Assembly (NCBI GenBank): GCA_003134045.1 | Contig: PLAH01000077.1 | Span: forward strand, 1 to 64,000 | Source of the DNA: Gammaproteobacteria bacterium | Lineage (GTDB): Bacteria; Pseudomonadota; Gammaproteobacteria; Steroidobacterales; Steroidobacteraceae | Length of the DNA stretch: 64,000 nucleotides | Direction: 5' to 3' | Shown: in pieces, positions 12,201 to 57,622 of the stretch | Layout: every line of letters starts with the position of its first letter | Numbering within the stretch: the stretch's first letter is position 1 | Translations under genes and position numbers: made by a program | The notes under the pieces: generated by a model | Databases searched by the model: none | Told to the model about the DNA's origin: nothing | Seen by the model: only the letters and a program-made list of their open reading frames with translations

Positions 12201-13898
12201 ATGATCGCGCTGCTCGAAGCGAAGAGCGCAGGTCTATGGTCGCGGCATCACATCGCAAACAACGTGCTGGCGGGCATCGTGGTGGGCATCGTCGCGTTGC
12301 CGCTCGCCATGGCGTTCGCGATCGCCTCCGGCGCGCGTCCAGAGCAAGGTCTTTACACCGCCATCGTTGCGGCGCTGTTGACCTCCCTATTCGGGGGCAC
12401 GCGCTTACAGATAGCGGGCCCTACCGGCGCGTTCATCGCGGTGCTGTCGGTGATCACCGCGACACACGGCATGGCCGGATTGCAGATCGCAACGCTGATG
12501 GCCGGAATTATCTTGGTGGGCTTCGGCGCCGCTCGATTGGGTGCCGTCATCGAGTACATTCCCAGTCCCGTCATCGTGGGCTTTACGGCCGGCATTGGCG
12601 TCATCATTTTTGTCGGGCAGTGGAAGGATTTTTTTGGCCTATCGCCCGCCCCGTCGGGTCTGCACTTTCATGAAAAAATCCTCGTTCTAGTGCAAGCGCT
12701 TCCGACCATTAACCTCGCCACGACGGGCCTTGCGCTCCTGGCTCTCGCCATTCTGATCGTCGGCCCGCGTCTCCTGAAACGAATTCCCGCACCGCTCGTC
12801 GCGATGGTCGTCATCACGGTGGTACAGTCCGTTTTTCATTTTGGCGGTGTGGCGACCATTGGCTCCGCGTTTGGCGGGATCCCGCGGACATTGCCGTCCT
12901 TTGCGCTTCCCTCCGTCCATTTCGCGCAGATCATCTCCCTGGTGGGGCCCGCTTTCACGATTGCACTCCTTGGGTCGATCGAATCGCTCCTCTCAGCCGT
13001 GGTTGCCGATGGCATGGCGGGAACCAAGCACAATTCGAATCAAGAACTGATAGGGCAGGGTATCGCCAATATCGTCGCGCCCCTGTTCGGCGGTTTCGCG
13101 GCCACCGGCGCGATCGCGCGCACGGCAACGAATATCCGTAACGGGGCGACGAGTCCGCTTGCAGGTGTCGTGCATTCGGGGTTTCTCATTTTGGTGATTT
13201 TGCTCCTTTCACCGTTAGCCTCGTCGGTCCCTCTATGTTGTCTCTCGGCCATCCTCTTCGTGGTGGCGTGGAACATGAGCGAAGTGCCCCACTTTATGAG
13301 GCTCGTGCGCGGTTCCCCCGGGACCGACGTAGCGGTGTTGCTCATTACCTTCGCACTCACGGTCTTCGTCGATCTCGTGGTCGCGGTGAACGTCGGCGTC
13401 ATTCTGGCGGCCCTCGTATTCATGCGGCGCATGGCGCTCTCAGTGAATATCGAGCCGCACGTCGAAGGCGCGGACACCGCCCCGAGAACGGCACTGCCTC
13501 CCGGTTCGGTGCCGTCCGGGACTGTTGTCTACAGCATCGAAGGTCCCTTGTTTTTCGGTGCCGCCCAGAAACTCGAGCGCACGCTCGCGCATGTCCAGCG
13601 GCCGGCGACTACATTGGTGCTGCGCATGGGCCAGGTGCCCTTCGTGGATGCCACCGGAATTTCGGCGATCGAGGAGATGATCACCGATTTCCTCAAGCAC
13701 GACGCCACGGTTGTTCTATGCGAAGTCCGCCAGAATGTTCTCCGGAAACTGGAACGTGCCGGCGTCATTGACCATTTGGGTGCGGAAAACGTCTGCGAGA
13801 CGGTGGCACTGGCACTGGCTCGCGCAAAAGCCGTTGATTTGGTGAAGGAGACCTGGACTCGCCTCGGAAAGCGCTCGACGAGTAAATCCCATGAATGA
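12201..13898 (+). CDS. SulP-family anion permease with STAS domain
   Basis: 565 residues, inner-membrane transporter of sulfate or bicarbonate type. About twelve to fourteen membrane helices (21-400) with the SulP signature GLYTAIVAALLTSLFGGTRLQIAGPTGAF, then a C-terminal STAS domain (about 440-550) with the anti-sigma-antagonist-like motif PFVDATGISAIEEM. The start used is ATG at 12201; TTG at 12192 is in frame too. The end overlaps the next gene by 8 bases, so the genes are coupled. In the company of molybdate and tungstate genes the substrate is probably sulfate or a related oxyanion. Some SulP proteins carry bicarbonate, so the substrate is not certain. Confidence 0.88.
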   Translation: MIALLEAKSAGLWSRHHIANNVLAGIVVGIVALPLAMAFAIASGARPEQGLYTAIVAALLTSLFGGTRLQIAGPTGAFIAVLSVITATHGMAGLQIATLMAGIILVGFGAARLGAVIEYIPSPVIVGFTAGIGVIIFVGQWKDFFGLSPAPSGLHFHEKILVLVQALPTINLATTGLALLALAILIVGPRLLKRIPAPLVAMVVITVVQSVFHFGGVATIGSAFGGIPRTLPSFALPSVHFAQIISLVGPAFTIALLGSIESLLSAVVADGMAGTKHNSNQELIGQGIANIVAPLFGGFAATGAIARTATNIRNGATSPLAGVVHSGFLILVILLLSPLASSVPLCCLSAILFVVAWNMSEVPHFMRLVRGSPGTDVAVLLITFALTVFVDLVVAVNVGVILAALVFMRRMALSVNIEPHVEGADTAPRTALPPGSVPSGTVVYSIEGPLFFGAAQKLERTLAHVQRPATTLVLRMGQVPFVDATGISAIEEMITDFLKHDATVVLCEVRQNVLRKLERAGVIDHLGAENVCETVALALARAKAVDLVKETWTRLGKRSTSKSHE

Positions 13899-18197: not shown

Positions 18198-19043
18198 ATG
18201 ATTTTCATACACACTCGCCGAACCCTGATTGCCATCGCCGCACTGGGCTTGGTGCTGGCGGTCGCGCCAACGATGGCGCAAGAGGACCGATCGATCGTAG
18301 TGGCGTCAACCACCTCCACGCAAGACTCCGGTCTATTCGATTATCTGCTGCCGATCATCAAGCAGAAGACCGGCATCACGGTGAAAGTCGTCGCGCAAGG
18401 CACCGGCCAAGCGCTCGACACGGCCCGGCGCGGCGACGCCGACGTGGTCTTCGTGCATGCCAAGGCGGAGGAGCTGAAATTCCTCGCGGAGGGCGAAAGC
18501 CTGAAACGCTATCCCGTGATGTACAACGATTTCGTGCTGCTCGGGCCAAAGAATGATCCCGCTGGCGTCGCGGGCATGAAAGATATCGGCCACGCGCTGC
18601 GAGGGATCAAGGACAGACGAGCGTCGTTCATCTCACGGGGCGACCGTTCCGGTACGCACGTCGCCGAACTCGCTCTATGGAAGGACACGGGTATCGACAT
18701 CGATACGGAGAAGGGGTCCTGGTACAAATCGATCGGGCAGGGCATGGGTGCCGCGCTCAATACCGCGAGCGCCAGCAACGCGTATGTGCTCTGCGACCGG
18801 GCTACCTGGCTTCATTTTAGGAATAAAGGCGAATTGCAAATCGCGGTCGAAGGCGACAGACGAATGTTCAACCAATACGGGGTCATGCTGGTGAACCCGG
18901 ACAAGCATCCGAACGTCAAGAAGCTGCTGGGCCAGGAATTCATCAACTATCTGATCTCACCGGCTGGCCAGAACGACATCGCCAACTATGAGATCGACGG
19001 CCAACCCTTGTTCTATCCGAATGCCAACCAAGCAGGAGCGTGA
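18198..19043 (+). CDS. tupA: tungstate-binding periplasmic protein TupA
   Basis: 281 residues with a signal peptide (about 1-27, cleavage after TMAQ). The mature start ASTTSTQDSGLFDYLLP is the TupA TTTSxxxSGL signature that binds the tungstate ion. A Shine-Dalgarno AAGGAAG precedes the ATG. Its stop overlaps the next gene. TupA proteins bind tungstate tightly in preference to molybdate; which ion is used here cannot be told from sequence. Confidence 0.9.
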   Translation: MIFIHTRRTLIAIAALGLVLAVAPTMAQEDRSIVVASTTSTQDSGLFDYLLPIIKQKTGITVKVVAQGTGQALDTARRGDADVVFVHAKAEELKFLAEGESLKRYPVMYNDFVLLGPKNDPAGVAGMKDIGHALRGIKDRRASFISRGDRSGTHVAELALWKDTGIDIDTEKGSWYKSIGQGMGAALNTASASNAYVLCDRATWLHFRNKGELQIAVEGDRRMFNQYGVMLVNPDKHPNVKKLLGQEFINYLISPAGQNDIANYEIDGQPLFYPNANQAGA

Positions 19044-29140: not shown

Positions 29141-29157
29141 ATACCGGGGTAGGGTAT
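29141..29157. promoter_or_regulatory. candidate CsoR/RcnR operator
   Basis: ATACC then GGGGTAG then GGTAT: a G-tract flanked by 5-base inverted AT-rich arms, the architecture of CsoR/RcnR operators (RcnR uses TACT and AGTA around a G-run). It precedes the repressor's own start and would also face the plus-strand genes from 29442. Confidence 0.55.
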
Positions 29158-30136: not shown

Positions 30137-30880
30137 ATGACCTACAACACTGAAGAAGCCACCCTCCGCACACCTATTCCCTTGGCGCAAAAATTTTCCG
30201 ATCGGGGTGCACAACTCGATGCCGCGCACGTCGGGGATATTCGCGGCGGTTTCGGCACGATTCGCGAACACGATGTGGGCCCCCGCAAAAATTGGTGGGC
30301 GCGCTTTAAAACGTTGCTTGCGATCTTAGGCCCTGGCCTGATCGTCATGGTCGGCGACAATGACGCCGGCGCCTTTGGCACGTATACCCAAGCCGGCCAA
30401 AACTACGGCACGACGCTGCTATGGACGTTATTGATGCTGGTCCCGGTGCTCTACGTCAATCAAGAAATGGTGCTGCGTTTGGGCGCCGTGACTGGAGTTG
30501 GCCACGCGCGTCTGATTCTCGAGCGATTCGGCAAATTCTGGGGCGCGTTCAGCGTCATCGATCTCTTTATATTGAACGCGCTGACCATCGTCACGGAATT
30601 CATTGGCTTGACGTTGGCCTTCGACTATTTGGGCATTCCTAAATTGTGGGGCGTCGTCGTCTCCGCCGTGATCATCATGGGCGCAGCGAGCACAGGCGAT
30701 TTCCGGCGTTTCGAACGCTTCTCCTTGGTGTTGGTGTTTGGCAGTCTGTTACTCGTGCCGATCTTTTTCGATGCGCATGTTCAAGAAATGGGCCGTGAGG
30801 CGGTGGCTCAGGTTAAAGTAGAACTTGGGAAACTCCTTAAGAATGCCTTCCGCGGAAGTAGTGTCATCAACGTAAAATGA
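30137..30880 (+). pseudogene. NRAMP divalent-metal transporter, 3'-truncated
   Basis: 247 codons. The NRAMP core is recognisable: LGPGLIVMVGDNDAGAFGTYTQAGQNYG (the DPGN-like metal site of this subfamily, here GDNDAG), then MLVPVLYVNQEMVLRLGAVTG and GLTLAFDYLGIP. Homology stops at about LVLVFGSLLLVPIFF (30765), after about five helices out of eleven or twelve. The last ~37 codons (VQEMGREAVAQVKVELGKLL..) are unrelated and lead straight into the next gene, whose ATG overlaps this stop. The transporter is almost certainly inactive. Confidence 0.8.
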
Positions 30881-31740: not shown

Positions 31741-31850
31741 GGACAATGAAACCGGGACGTGGTTTAGCGGACAAGGACATCATTAGTCGGACGCGACAGG
31801 TGGCCATGGACATCAATGGCTGAACTTGGACATCAACTTTTGAACGGGAC
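31741..31850. repeat. cluster of eight GGAC repeats, possible transposon end
   Basis: GGAC begins at 31741, 31755, 31769, 31775, 31789, 31808, 31828 and 31847; five are GGACA, including three GGACATCA. Closely spaced repeats like this are typical of IS21-type terminal binding sites. No transposase gene is attached. It ends 38 bases before the dif site. Confidence 0.35.
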
Positions 31851-31887
31851 AGCATCGCAGGCCGCTTAGGATTCTTTATAATCCATG

Positions 31888-31915
31888 ACTTAACATAATA
31901 TACATTATGCGAAGT
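31888..31915. other. dif: dif site (XerC/XerD recombination site of the chromosome terminus)
   Basis: On the plus strand the XerD arm is ACTTAACATAA, the centre TATACA and the XerC arm TTATGCGAAGT. Read on the other strand, 24 of 28 positions equal E. coli dif; the differences are at positions 1, 2, 4 and 27, outside the core contacts. XerCD with FtsK resolve chromosome dimers here, so the replication terminus is probably close by. The same site is also used by mobile elements that integrate with host Xer recombinases. Confidence 0.88.
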
Positions 31916-33333: not shown

Positions 33334-34516
33334 ATGCGATTTCGATATGAGCCCTTGTATACATCATGCGAAGGGCTGGCACCACGCTTAGGGGTTCGGT
33401 CGGTCGCCCGCAAGCCTCGCAAAGTGCTGTTGAGCGCCTTGATCTTGTCGCTCGGTCTGGCCTTTTTTGTTACTGCGCTGACCATCCGGGCCTCCATGTT
33501 ATCTACCGTTGACTCGGTTGGCCGAACCAAGAGCTTTGACCTTGGGGTCGGTCTGCGCGCGGCAGAGCCGGTCGACCGACTGAAGGCGTGGGTAGAGGAA
33601 ATACCCGAAGTTCGGCGCGGGGAATACTGGTCGACTGCGGAGGCGACTCTGCACCGAGCGGGACCGCGCTTCAACAATCCAACACCGATTGTCGGGATAC
33701 CCAACGACACGGAGTCCATTCGTCCGGACGTCATCGCGGGTCACTGGATTGAAGCAGCCTTCCCGGCTGGCATTGTCGTCAACCAGATGCTGCTGCGGGA
33801 TGAACCCGACCTACATGGGCGGCGCGTATACGATGGTTGTCGATGGGCATCGCGTCGACGTTACAGTGGTGGGCGTCATCCAAGAATTCAATCCCGGCCG
33901 GATCTATTTTTCGAAGTCACTTCTGGACGGATTGCTCAACCAAGAGGGACGCGCCAATGCCATGGTACTCAGTCTCGACGACGGGAGTTTCGAGGCTCAA
34001 CGGCACGTCGCCAGCAAAATCCAAGCCAGCGCGATCGGATCCGATCGTCAAATCTCCGGCATATTGCTCACTCGGACGCTCGAGATGGTCATTCTCGGCC
34101 ATCTGGATATCTTGACCGGTCTGTTGATGTTGATTGGCGTGATTTCGCTGATGGTCGGCGCGATGGGGGTGGCCTCCACCATCAGCGTCAGCGTGGTCGA
34201 GCGATTCCGGGAAATTGCCGTCCTTAAGGCGATTGGCGGACGTGGCTCGACGATTGCCGCTCTATTTGCCACCGAGGCAGTTGTCATTGCGCTCATCGGT
34301 TGGGCGATCTCAGTGGCCTTGACGCCTTTGCTTAGCCATCCCGTGGTCTCCGCTCTCGGGTCCGCAGTGATCGGCTACAATTTCGAGTACCGCACCAGCC
34401 CGATGGGCGTGGCGCTCGCCTTGGGCGTAGCTATCCTGGTCGCTCTTTTGGCTGCCATCCTACCGATCAGAGCTGCAATGAGGTTGACTATCCGAAATGG
34501 GTTGCACGCTGAATGA
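33334..34516 (+). pseudogene. FtsX/MacB-type ABC permease, 5'-truncated and frameshifted
   Basis: Homology begins at LAPRLGVRSVARKPRKVLLSALILSLGLAFFVTAL (about 33380), normally the middle of an eight-helix FtsX permease. The first frame ends near NQMLLRDEPDLHG; a one-base shift near 33818 moves it to the frame reading MGGAYTMVVDGHRVDVTVVGVIQEF..ISVSVVERFREIAVLKAIGG to the end. The three C-terminal helices and the REIAVLKAIGG coupling motif are intact. These permeases export or extract lipids, lipoproteins or peptides with an ATPase, absent here. Inactive. Confidence 0.75.
33351..33376. other. partial dif-like sequence (central region plus XerC arm) within an inverted repeat
   Basis: TATACATCATGCGAAG (33358-33373) matches the centre and XerC arm of the dif at 31888 with one mismatch in 16. 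The XerD arm is not conserved. GCCCTT and AAGGGC form perfect arms around it. FtsX homology in the next gene starts just after it, so it may mark a past Xer-mediated or other recombination junction. Confidence 0.4.
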
Positions 34517-34574: not shown

Positions 34575-35036
34575 CTAGCTACTGCGACGACGCGATGATG
34601 GCGTGCGAGGCGGCTGCCACTCGCTGAGTGCAATGACGGATCCCGACTCTGTAACCCGGTTGACATACCGAGTATCGGCCGTGACAAACAACCCGTTGTG
34701 TATGAGCGCGAGCGCGTGATAGGCCGCGTCGTAAAACGACACCTCATAGCGACTGGTCAGTTCCAGGGTTTTTGCGAGCCAAGGGGGAGACGGCAGCGCC
34801 TCCTCAAGCCCAAACTTCATCAGCGCAGACAGCCAACCCGAAGCATGCGTCGGGAAGCGTCGTGCAACCGTATTACCAACTTCGTAAAGCCATAAGGCCG
34901 GCAAGAGTGCGTGCACCGCTTCATCCAGGACCGCAGCGCGAAGGAGTAGCGCTTTGTCCGCGTCCGGTTCGTCATCCGATGGCAGCACCCACTTGAGCAA
35001 GACGGATGCATCAGGCACCACCAATGGCGTTTGCAT
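34575..35036 (-). CDS. vapC: VapC-type PIN-domain toxin
   Basis: 153 residues. PIN ribonuclease fold: the first acidic site VVPDASVLLKW, WLYEVGNTVARR in the middle, and FYDAAYHALALIHNGLFVTADTRYVNR at the end with the other Mg-binding aspartates. VapC toxins cleave tRNA or rRNA and are neutralised by VapB. The start overlaps the antitoxin stop as TAATG. Confidence 0.9.
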   Translation of the reverse strand: MQTPLVVPDASVLLKWVLPSDDEPDADKALLLRAAVLDEAVHALLPALWLYEVGNTVARRFPTHASGWLSALMKFGLEEALPSPPWLAKTLELTSRYEVSFYDAAYHALALIHNGLFVTADTRYVNRVTESGSVIALSEWQPPRTPSSRRRSS

Positions 35037-35266
35037 TAATGGCCGCGCTCCCGGTCTTCTCGGATCCACCTCGTCAGTTCGTCCGTGCTAATTTTCGGAA
35101 GTTGCGCGCGCAGGGCCTCCATTTCACGCACCGCGTCGCTGCGTCGGCGCCGCATGGCCCAGGCGCGTAACGCCTCATTGATGGCACGGCTGCGCTCGCC
35201 GGCCGGAACCCTGCCAAGGAATCCCCAGGTATCCTCGTCAATCATTACATTGATGCGCTTGCTCAT
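35036..35266 (-). CDS. vapB: VapB-type ribbon-helix-helix antitoxin
   Basis: 76 residues starting MSKRINVMIDEDTWGFL. The N-terminal ribbon-helix-helix DNA-binding part includes GERSRAINEALRAWAMRRR; the acidic C-terminal tail (STDELTRWIREDRERGH) would bind the toxin. It precedes vapC on the same transcript and probably represses the promoter at the palindrome 35297-35318. A longer in-frame start upstream would include the operator and is unlikely. Confidence 0.85.
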   Translation of the reverse strand: MSKRINVMIDEDTWGFLGRVPAGERSRAINEALRAWAMRRRRSDAVREMEALRAQLPKISTDELTRWIREDRERGH

Positions 35267-35318: not shown

Positions 35319-35640
35319 GAACAACTTTGCGCAAATCATCGAGCACGCCGGATCTTGGCTTTATCGGGCCAACGATTAGGACGGCTTTTGGGCGCAACAA
35401 AGCTTGTCAAAAGATCCCTTATCGAGACCGAATGGTGTTGCGCGACTGCCGACCACAAAGCGCAACAATCGGCACAATTTTCTATCGCAACACCTGCCCG
35501 ATGGAAAAAACGTCGTCCTCAAGTAGCTCGGACCATAAATCGCATAACTATTCGCGCACCATTGACGCAACATTGGGCCGCACTTGCCAAGACTGCGAAG
35601 TCGTACTGTAGAGGCTGTATAGAGATGTTCCCATTGCGCC
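35319..35640. repeat. intergenic region with repeated CGCAACA
   Basis: CGCAACA occurs near 35393, 35461, 35486 and 35567 and its reverse complement near 35437; TTGCGCAA lies near 35331. Spacing is irregular. The motif may be a binding site or chance. No convincing gene seen. Confidence 0.25.
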
Positions 35641-35700
35641 GGATAAAAATGTCCCTTTCTGGGTCATTTTACAGGTGCGGCAATGCAGGGACACCTCACG

Positions 35701-37016
35701 ATGAGCACTCTCGCGCTGGATCGGCTGCAAGTACTCCAAAAGGTTAGGGAACGTCGAATGACCCAAGCCGCGGCGGCTCAGGTGCTGGGTCTGAGCTATC
35801 GCCAGGGCAAGCGATTGATGGCGCGGTTCCGTCGCCAAGGCGCCGCCGGCCTGGTCTCACAGAAACGCGGCAAGCAAGGCAACCATCGGTTGCCGGCGGT
35901 CTACACGGAGCACGTTCTTGACCTCGTGCGCGAGCATTATGCGGACTTTGGTCCGACCTTGGCGCGTGAGAAGCTCTTCGAGCGCCACGGGGTTCTGATC
36001 GGCCGTGAGACGCTCCGCGGATTGATGCGCAACGCCGGCCTATGGCACACCCGAGCCGCGCGGCGCAAAGCCGTCCAGCAGCCTCGAGCGCGGCGGCAAT
36101 ATTTCGGCGAGCTGATCCAGATCGACGGCTCAGAACACCATTGGTTTGAGGATCGGGGTTCCTATTGCACCGTGCTGACCTACGTCGACGACGCGACGAG
36201 CCGGCTGCAGCTGCTCCGGTTCGTCGAAGGCAAGTCAACGTTCGATTATATGCAGGCCACGAAGCTGTACATCGAGCGCTACGGCAAGCCGGTGGCGTTC
36301 TACAGCGACAAACATACGGGTTTCCATGTCAACAAGCGATCGGCGTGGGCGGCAACGGGATGACGCAATACGGTCGTGCGCTGCACGAGCTTGGGATCGA
36401 GATCCTCTGTGCGAACACGCCGGCGGCCAAGGGGCGGGTCGAACGGGCACATGGAACACTGCAAGATCGCCTCGTGAAGGAAATGCGTTTGGAAGGAATT
36501 TCCACGATTGCCGACGCCAATGCCTGGATTGATGGATTCGTCGAGACCTACAACGCAAGATTTTCCAAGCCGCCGAGTTTACCGATCGATCTGCATCGGC
36601 CGTTGATGGATTTCGAGGATCTCGACGACACCTTTACGTGGCAAGAGCAACGTTCACTATCGGCCTCATTGACACTGCAATACGACAACGTGTTGTACCT
36701 TGTGGATCCCAGTCACGAGAACCAAAGGCTCGCCGGCAAACGCGTCACCGTCATCGACTATCCGGATGGACGCATCAAGATCCGTCATGAAGGACGGGAT
36801 CTCGCCTACCGGGAGTTCGACAAACTCACGCAGACTCATCAAGGGGAGGTCGTCAGTCACAAGCGGCTTGGGGCGATGCTGACTTTTCTCGCTGAGAAAA
36901 GCACTGAAGGACCCCAGGAGAAGCGCAGTATCAAATGCCCTACTCCCCGGACGCGCCCCCGCACGTCTTGTTTATTCGATTTGGCTCCCGCTGTCTGCCG
37001 GTTCCGTGCTGATTGA
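35701..37016 (+). mobile_element. ISNCY-type transposase gene, frameshifted, in an IS remnant
   Basis: First frame (to 36363): HTH part MTQAAAAQVLGLSYRQGKRLMARFRRQG and DDE catalytic acids in LIQIDGSEHHWFEDRG, YVDDATSRL and FYSDKHTGF. Near 36333 a single-base change moves the gene to the frame reading GVGGNGMTQYGRALHELGIEILCANTPAAKGRVERAHGTLQDRL, which has the last catalytic Glu, and on to 37016. Upstream, GCGCCGGATAAAAATGTCCC (35637) looks like an IS end; no matching right end was found, so the element is truncated. It lies at the left edge of the catabolic region. Confidence 0.75.
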
Positions 37017-40340: not shown

Positions 40341-41678
40341 TTGCACGCGCCCCACCCAGTGTCGAGTGAGACCATTTCAAATCCATCGACCGCCATAGTC
40401 GAACGGGCATATTGGCTCCCTTTCATAATGGTTGCATCGTTGTTTTTAGCGTGGGGCGTCGCCGGAAGCCTCAACGATGTCCTCGTTCGCCAATTTCAAA
40501 AGGCGCTTGCACTCAATCGCACCCAGAGCAGTCTCATTCAATTTGCGTTTTATGTGGGCTATTTCTGCGCCGCCCTTCCCGCCGGACTGGTCATTAGGCG
40601 ATTTGGCTACAAGCGCGCAATCCTCGCAGGGCTTTCCCTCTATGCGGTAGGGGCCATGCTTTTCTATCCGGCGGCTGAATTGGAGCGGTTTTCGATTTTC
40701 TTGGCTGCACTTTATGTCATCGCGATCGGACTGGCGTTTCTGGAGACTGCCGCAAATCCATACGTATCGATTCTGGGTGCTCCGCAGACGGCAGCCTCCA
40801 GGCTCAATCTTGCGCAGTCCTTCTGGTGCGTCGGCGCCACTTTGGGCCCGTTGATCGGTGGCAGATTCATATTTTCTGGCATCGAACACAGTCCCGCGGA
40901 GCTGGCGGCAATGTCGGCCGCGAATCTCGCGGCTTATCGATCTTCCGAGGCACACATGGTACAGGCGCCGTACCTCGTGGTTGCCGGCCTCGTTATCTTA
41001 CTCGCCGTTGCCATAGGGCGCACGCCCTTCCCAGTTCTCGCGGTCGAACGGACCGGTGCCGACGTCACCGGTCGCAGGCCGATTTTTGCCGTTCTTCGGC
41101 ATCGGCAGCTACGTTATGCGGTCCTTGCACAATTCGCCTACACCGGCGCACAAATCGCAATCCTGAGTTTCTTCATTGATTTTACGAAAGCCGTGATGCC
41201 TCACATGCCAGAGCGCACGACGGCATTCTTTTTGTCGAGCAGTCTGGCGCTGATGTTCCTTGGCCGCCTGGTAGGTGTCGTCGTACAGCGAAAAATGCAT
41301 CCGGCCCGCCTACTGTTCTTCTTCTGCTGTGGAGCCATGATGCTTTGTGCTGCCGCCATTTTAACCCATGGAGTCAGTGCGATTGCCTCCCTTTGGGGCA
41401 CAGCATTCTTCATGTCGGTGATCTTTCCGACGGTATTCAGTCTTGGTGTGACAAATCTTGGGGATGAAACTGGGCTGGGCGCCTCCTACCTCATCATGTC
41501 CGTTATCGGGGCGGCGCTCATTCCGCCCCTGACAGGTCTGGTGTCCGATTGGCAAACGGGAATTCAAAAGGCCATGACCCTACCGCTGGTTTGTCTAGCG
41601 GTTTGCGCAGGTTACGCGCTGGCCGCGCCACGGCTAATCGCCGCTGACGGCGCGCAAGCGAGCCGAACCGCGAGGTGA
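40341..41678 (+). CDS. MFS transporter, FucP (sugar:proton symporter) type
   Basis: 445 residues, twelve membrane helices. N-terminal half matches L-fucose/glucose-galactose permeases: FLAWGVAGSLNDVLVRQFQKALALNRTQSSLIQFAFYVGYFCAALPAGLVIRRFGYK and ETAANPYVSILG. TTG start, supported by GGAGG 6 bases upstream. In this setting the substrate may be a sugar or a sugar-like catabolic substrate; no sugar genes adjoin it. Confidence 0.82.
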   Translation: MHAPHPVSSETISNPSTAIVERAYWLPFIMVASLFLAWGVAGSLNDVLVRQFQKALALNRTQSSLIQFAFYVGYFCAALPAGLVIRRFGYKRAILAGLSLYAVGAMLFYPAAELERFSIFLAALYVIAIGLAFLETAANPYVSILGAPQTAASRLNLAQSFWCVGATLGPLIGGRFIFSGIEHSPAELAAMSAANLAAYRSSEAHMVQAPYLVVAGLVILLAVAIGRTPFPVLAVERTGADVTGRRPIFAVLRHRQLRYAVLAQFAYTGAQIAILSFFIDFTKAVMPHMPERTTAFFLSSSLALMFLGRLVGVVVQRKMHPARLLFFFCCGAMMLCAAAILTHGVSAIASLWGTAFFMSVIFPTVFSLGVTNLGDETGLGASYLIMSVIGAALIPPLTGLVSDWQTGIQKAMTLPLVCLAVCAGYALAAPRLIAADGAQASRTAR

Positions 41679-56943: not shown

Positions 56944-57622
56944 CACCGCGGTACCGGGCCCCTCCGCCGCCGTGAGCCGGGTTCGCGTGGCCGCCCGGGC
57001 ACTCGCTCGGGCCGGATTGGTCCATGCGTACGGGCACTGCAGCGTGCGCCTGGATGCGCATCATTTTCTGGTCAGCCCGGCCAAGCCGCTGGGATTGGTG
57101 GCTGCGAGCGATATCCCTGTGAGCGTCGCCATCAGCGGCGCGCTACCGCCCGGAGCGCTCCCCGAGGTCATCGCCCACCAACATATCTATAGCCGCCGCG
57201 GCGACGTGGGCGCGATAGCGCGTTTTCAATCTCCGCAGGTGATGGCGCTCTCTGCCCTGGGGCGTACGCCGCGTGCATTGCACGGCTTCGGCGCCTACTT
57301 TGCGCCGTCCCCTCCCCTGCACCTCGACCCGCGCCTGGTGCGGGACGAGGCAAGCGCCGCGGCGTTGAGCGAGACATTGGGCTCGGCCCGCGCCATCGTC
57401 ATGCGCGGCAACGGCGCCATCACGGTGGGAGCGCGTTTGGAAGAGGCAGTGGCGCTCGCCTGGTATCTCGAGGACGCGGCCCGGGTGGAAATGGCAGTAC
57501 TCGGCACCGGCCTGAATGCGCTGGAGTTCACCGACGCGGAGGTTCGCGACAGAGCCGTCACTGCAGGACGGTTGTTCGAGCGCATGTGGGATTGGATGAC
57601 CATGAACGATCCCGAGTTGTGA
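56936..57622 (+). CDS. class II aldolase/adducin-family protein with altered metal site
   Basis: 228 residues. Aldolase/adducin fold: GLVHAYGHCSVRL at the start, LPEVIAHQHIYSRRGDVGAIARFQS in the middle and MRGNGAITVGARLEEAVALAWYLEDAARV. In zinc aldolases the segment after the loop reads VVHTH (two His ligands); here it reads IARFQ, so R96 and Q98 replace them, though an Glu and His-x-His upstream remain (E77, H81, H83). A zinc aldolase reaction is therefore doubtful. The gene overlaps the dioxygenase gene, so it is part of the operon; its job is unknown. Confidence 0.7.
   Translation: MPDTAVPGPSAAVSRVRVAARALARAGLVHAYGHCSVRLDAHHFLVSPAKPLGLVAASDIPVSVAISGALPPGALPEVIAHQHIYSRRGDVGAIARFQSPQVMALSALGRTPRALHGFGAYFAPSPPLHLDPRLVRDEASAAALSETLGSARAIVMRGNGAITVGARLEEAVALAWYLEDAARVEMAVLGTGLNALEFTDAEVRDRAVTAGRLFERMWDWMTMNDPEL

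Follow-up and report, generated by a model that had tools for sequence, protein, structure and literature searches.

Does a 28-bp sequence that resembles dif, found in a draft genome of an uncultured gammaproteobacterium, mark the place where dimers of its chromosome are resolved, or did it come with the mobile DNA whose remains lie beside it? The question is raised by positions 31888-31915 of the 64,000-nucleotide stretch of DNA analysed here (the window; positions 1 to 64,000 of contig PLAH01000077.1, from a member of the Steroidobacteraceae), where an initial annotation had recognised a XerCD dif site and, with it, the probable replication terminus. The evidence assembled below argues that these positions are almost certainly the chromosomal dif site, in the terminus region. 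A second question is how the relics on its two sides came to be there.

The dif sequence and its surroundings

The sequence at 31888-31915, ACTTAACATAATATACATTATGCGAAGT, agrees in 24 of its 28 bases with E. coli dif read as the reverse complement, exactly the match that had been counted in the initial annotation, with the centre and both arms present; the second-best match to E. coli dif on either strand of the 121 kb contig (121,430 bp) is 18/28. Because it is the reverse complement that matches, the XerD arm lies on the left and the XerC arm on the right (Table 1), the two putative binding arms being assigned to XerC and XerD as in E. coli. One of the four differences from E. coli is an outer substitution in the XerD arm (position 2), and the remaining three are at outer positions of the XerC arm; the XerC-arm ending GCGAAGT is seen again in several relatives. 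The site shares with the chromosomal dif of E. coli and other gammaproteobacteria the two 11-bp arms, the TGTATA centre and its single copy, and also shared with those systems are the convergence of KOPS and the presence of XerC, XerD and the FtsK gamma domain. All three proteins are encoded in the genome, with matches above cut-off for XerC (363 bits) and for XerD (346 bits; the gene is truncated where its contig ends) and above the curated cut-off for the FtsK gamma domain (95.8 bits).

Dinucleotide shuffling of the window, repeated 100 times, never produced dif within 3 mismatches. The genome assembly is a 197-contig draft of 5.5 Mb (completeness 96.8, contamination 6.3), and no further dif within 3 mismatches was found anywhere in it, leaving 31888-31915 as the sole copy; a better dif elsewhere, which the initial annotation had named as the finding that would speak against its proposal, did not turn up in the draft genome. 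Given the contamination of 6.3, membership of the contig in the bin is not certain. A degenerate dif search of the same genome gave two further 3-mismatch hits, rejected as chance-like, with 6 mismatches to the full core.

The site had also been described as lying in a stretch of broken genes. That description fits the immediate surroundings, with their Nramp, FtsX and transposase remnants, but not the rest of the window, where most of the ORFs tested match ordinary metabolic or transport families well and a few are without a match. Mobile DNA in the window consists of relics only, confined to about 31.7-37 kb (within about 5 kb). A PIN-domain gene at 34575-35069 (- strand) lies between dif and the IS1202-family relic described below; it probably encodes a VapC-like toxin, and a short ORF region beside it may encode an antitoxin.

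Table 1. Positions of dif, its arms and neighbouring features in the window
Feature	Position	Strand	Remarks
KOPS-like GGGNAGGG	13053..13060	+	points to dif
KOPS-like GGGNAGGG	18735..18742	+	points to dif
KOPS-like GGGNAGGG	29147..29154	+	points to dif
Truncated Nramp-family transporter gene	30137-30880		profile positions 2-127 of 357 only
Relic mobile-element end, six GGACA repeats, terminating GAACGGGACA	31741..31851	-	36 bp from XerD arm
XerD-binding arm of dif, ACTTAACATAA on + strand	31888..31898	-	10/11 identical to E. coli XerD arm
Central region of dif, 6 bp, TATACA (TGTATA in E. coli orientation)	31899..31904	-	identical to E. coli hexanucleotide
XerC-binding arm of dif, TTATGCGAAGT on + strand	31905..31915	-	8/11 identical to E. 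coli XerC arm
Partial FtsX permease	33689-34516
Outer 8 bp of dif XerC arm, TGCGAAGT	35594..35601	+	copy without XerD arm
5-bp gap CGTAC between partial XerC arm and IS left end	35602..35606	+	spacing as in PMC10132070 and in relatives
Relic IS1202-family (ISNCY) IS, left end TGTAGAGGCTG...	35607..36930, end approximate	+	transposase in two frames
Transposase, N-terminal part (HTH and start of catalytic domain)	35701..36363	+
Transposase, C-terminal part, other frame	36330..36821	+
KOPS-like GGGNAGGG	40573..40580	-	points to dif
KOPS-like GGGNAGGG	41025..41032	-	points to dif
KOPS-like GGGNAGGG	57310..57317	-	points to dif; three further ones outside the window, same contig

Polarity, conservation and role of the site

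The sequence on both sides of the site is polarised with respect to it. Each of the nine GGGNAGGG (KOPS) octamers that the 121 kb contig contains is directed toward dif: three lie to its left on the + strand, and to its right there are six on the - strand. Near 44 homologous loci in relatives 113 KOPS point toward dif versus 8 that point away. Other G-rich octamers in the contig, obtained as permuted patterns, are polarised too (382 to 189), and the polarity within the contig is therefore not specific to KOPS alone.

For GC skew the analysis covered the 121 kb contig in full and, in the relatives, sampled stretches. In the contig itself, the skew change anticipated near 31.9 kb was borne out in part: skew changes sign across dif and is higher to its left (block-shuffle p = 0.016), but the change is weak, with a mean difference of 0.0135 per base, and the cumulative maximum falls at 43.9 kb, 12 kb to the right of dif, which counts against the chromosomal-dif reading. 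In 28 relatives dif has 5 kb or more of sequence to either side, and in 26 of these skew is higher on the left. In G031, a genome in a single contig from which samples were taken at 240-kb intervals, one side of dif has negative skew over about 1.7 Mb and the other side mostly positive skew. This flip in the relatives, together with the KOPS polarity, is stronger evidence for the proposal of a probable terminus than the skew of the contig itself. A survey of dif sites placed dif near the skew shift and not exactly at it, dif being the place of dimer resolution, with which the end of replication need not coincide exactly (PMC3025954).

The site is also conserved. Sixty relatives drawn from the same genus, family and order were compared, and the 22-bp core of dif was present within 3 mismatches in 43 of them, once each in almost all. 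The flanks of the core in the relatives are mostly unrelated sequence, and a core that is kept amid unrelated flanks is expected of a site selected for itself.

Sequences that resemble dif can have another origin, and here the relics on both sides of the site suggest that it might be the attL or attR of an integrated Xer-exploiting element, or a pdif of the plasmid type belonging to a dif module, and not the primary chromosomal dif. An octamer of the XerC arm does recur 3.7 kb away, in the same orientation and beside the IS1202-family relic, with the PIN-domain toxin-like gene between that relic and dif; toxin-antitoxin genes are frequent in published dif modules (PMC10132070), and the congener G016 has two copies of dif, one of them followed by genes as in a TLC-phage-like element. 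However, an origin of this kind is highly improbable when set against the lack of any second dif within 3 mismatches in the genome, the missing XerD arm and spacer of the copy at 35594, and the convergence at dif of the KOPS of both sides.

As the chromosomal dif, the site would act in the resolution of chromosome dimers, the binding of XerC and XerD and their recombination at dif being attributed to it from the known pathway. In a dimer of joined sister chromosomes, septal FtsK would translocate along the DNA, oriented by KOPS, up to dif, where its gamma domain would activate XerD, and strand exchange by XerC and XerD between the two copies of dif would then yield two monomers. This FtsK- and KOPS-dependent role is the reason why dif is expected in the terminus region of the chromosome. 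The site is of a known type, an ordinary dif of an uncultured gammaproteobacterium, and its identification fixes the terminus region for the chromosome of this organism and provides the dif sequence of the genus.

Some copies of dif in the relatives lie close to the ends of contigs. In G016 there are two perfect dif cores, each close to the end of its contig (L106 = G016:C31 and L107 = G016:C62), and behind one of them lie genes that match the Xer recombination activation factor of the VC1465 family and a replication protein of the G2P type, an arrangement like that of TLC-phage-like elements that have integrated at dif. In L027 (G002:C29) and L028 (G019:C15), from two congeners and unrelated in sequence, the dif core is exactly 116 bp from the start of the contig; a repeat at dif may have produced these starts during assembly.

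IS1202-family elements on the XerC side

A 2023 account by Siguier et al. is said to deal with ISAjo2-type ISs of the IS1202 family as elements that target dif/pdif. The insertion point of elements of this type is 5 bp away from the XerC arm of a dif or pdif site; their orientation is constant, and a 5-bp duplication accompanies insertion (Harmer, Pong and Hall 2023, PMC10132070). The transposase on the XerC side of dif in the window matches NF033594 (ISNCY_2/IS1202 family) at 256.9 bits, with a cut-off of 250, and is split by a frameshift near profile position 203. The layout at its left end is TGCGAAGT-CGTAC-TGTAGAGG, so that a 5'-TGT end is found 5 bp from the partial XerC arm with the transposase reading away from it. 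The element has in common with the ISAjo2-type elements the NF033594 transposase, the TGTAG left end, the XerC-arm sequence 5 bp off and the orientation; it differs from them in its frameshift, in a right end that is unrecognisable, and in its position, 3.7 kb from the intact dif and next to only part of a XerC arm. The searches found no recognisable terminal repeat at the right end and no second CGTAC that could be a target duplication. The element at 35607 is classed here as a relic and not as a full member of the family.

Comparable arrangements, with intact elements of the family among them, occur at dif in several relatives. In G017 an IS1202-family element lies 5 bp from dif with a second copy behind it, in G010 an element lies 5 bp from a degenerate dif whose XerC arm is intact, and in G054 the end of a relic and in G024 an end with the IS1202-type layout are likewise found at 5 bp. 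A survey of named loci, limited to the 76 that had enough upstream sequence, found a dif-like site exactly 5 bp from the TGT end in 39, and in none of the control stretches. The published 5-bp pattern at the XerC arm, described in Acinetobacter, is thereby extended to this lineage and also to many of the Alpha-, Beta- and Gammaproteobacteria surveyed, and IS1202-family elements can thus be used as pointers to dif/pdif sites that are not yet known. On contig C68 of G018, a dif-like site has an ISNCY fragment 2.4 kb off, for which no XerC arm was found at 5 bp. The pair in G017 is a tandem to the right of dif (L039 13427-16665, G017:C538), with transposases that are 75% identical over the matched part.

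How the relic in the window came to lie 3.7 kb from dif can be explained in two ways. The element may have landed directly beside a bare XerC-like half-site at 35594-35601, with no complete dif involved. The octamer TGCGAAGT, which occurs only 6 times on the two strands of the 121 kb contig, stands at exactly the 5-bp spacing of the family, and neither an XerD arm nor a spacer is present ahead of it at 35574-35593, the complete dif being 3.7 kb away. However, where the XerC arm of a survey site is well matched, an XerD arm that is at least recognisable is nearly always retained, and in a relic later loss or replacement could have removed the remaining part of the target. Insertion at a half-site is accordingly the less probable course, though one with an appreciable chance of being right. 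Favoured instead, on the strength of that retained XerD arm in the survey, is a history in which the IS would once have sat at a complete dif and later been parted from it by the intervening 3.7 kb. The two copies of TGCGAAGT (31908 and 35594) were also considered as a duplication around a 3.7 kb insertion; inspection by eye revealed no inverted repeat at the ends of that segment.

The relic on the XerD side

The relic beside the XerD arm is of a different kind. Sixty bp of it (about 31792-31851) are 92% identical to a stretch in the congener G018 that lies about 50 bp from the XerD arm and forms the end of an element next to dif, and in G018 an inverted form of the relic's end motif borders an element that carries tniB and tniQ. 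Because the motif borders such an element there, the relic in the window probably derives from the end of a transposon of the Tni type. Its motif type is that of the TGTCCCGTTCAAAAGTT-type element end, and this terminal motif, shared by the window relic and the G018 element, is the point of likeness to the Tni-type (TniA/TniB/TniQ, Tn402/Tn5053-like) transposons. No tni genes were found in the window, in which only the element end remains.

Tn5053-like elements target res sites. By a similar route, the dif of this genus might be hunted from both sides, by IS1202-family elements at 5 bp on the XerC side and by Tni-type elements on the XerD side. This idea is unlikely to be correct; it is drawn from only two congeners and could be coincidence, and two cases at differing distances (36 bp and about 50 bp) do not show that Tni-type ends target dif. 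If it were true, a Tni-type element that targets dif, as Tn5053-like elements target res, would represent a new class of dif hunter, and the relic beside the XerD arm is a lead worth a broader search.

On the main reading of the site, the nearby mobile relics are bystanders of the chromosomal dif that landed beside it, and the IS1202-family relic probably arrived through the known preference of its family for XerC-bound sites. The suggestion in the initial annotation that dif accounts for a gathering of mobile DNA in the area holds for that one piece, which belongs to a dif-targeting family, but it goes too far for the region as a whole, in which there is little mobile DNA and the other piece is only suggestive.

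A KfrA-like gene paired with a tyrosine recombinase gene was considered as a general dif-associated element and rejected, KfrA having been found in few relatives and not in the window. On the XerD side of dif in G018 (L083 7605-9765) and G054 (L038 2212-3610), two genomes that belong to different families, a KfrA_N gene has a divergent neighbour: in G018 a tyrosine recombinase gene, and in G054 a gene that runs off the end of its contig and matches no Pfam family. The KfrA_N/recombinase pair resembles the tnpT/tnpS resolution pair of Tn4651-like transposons.
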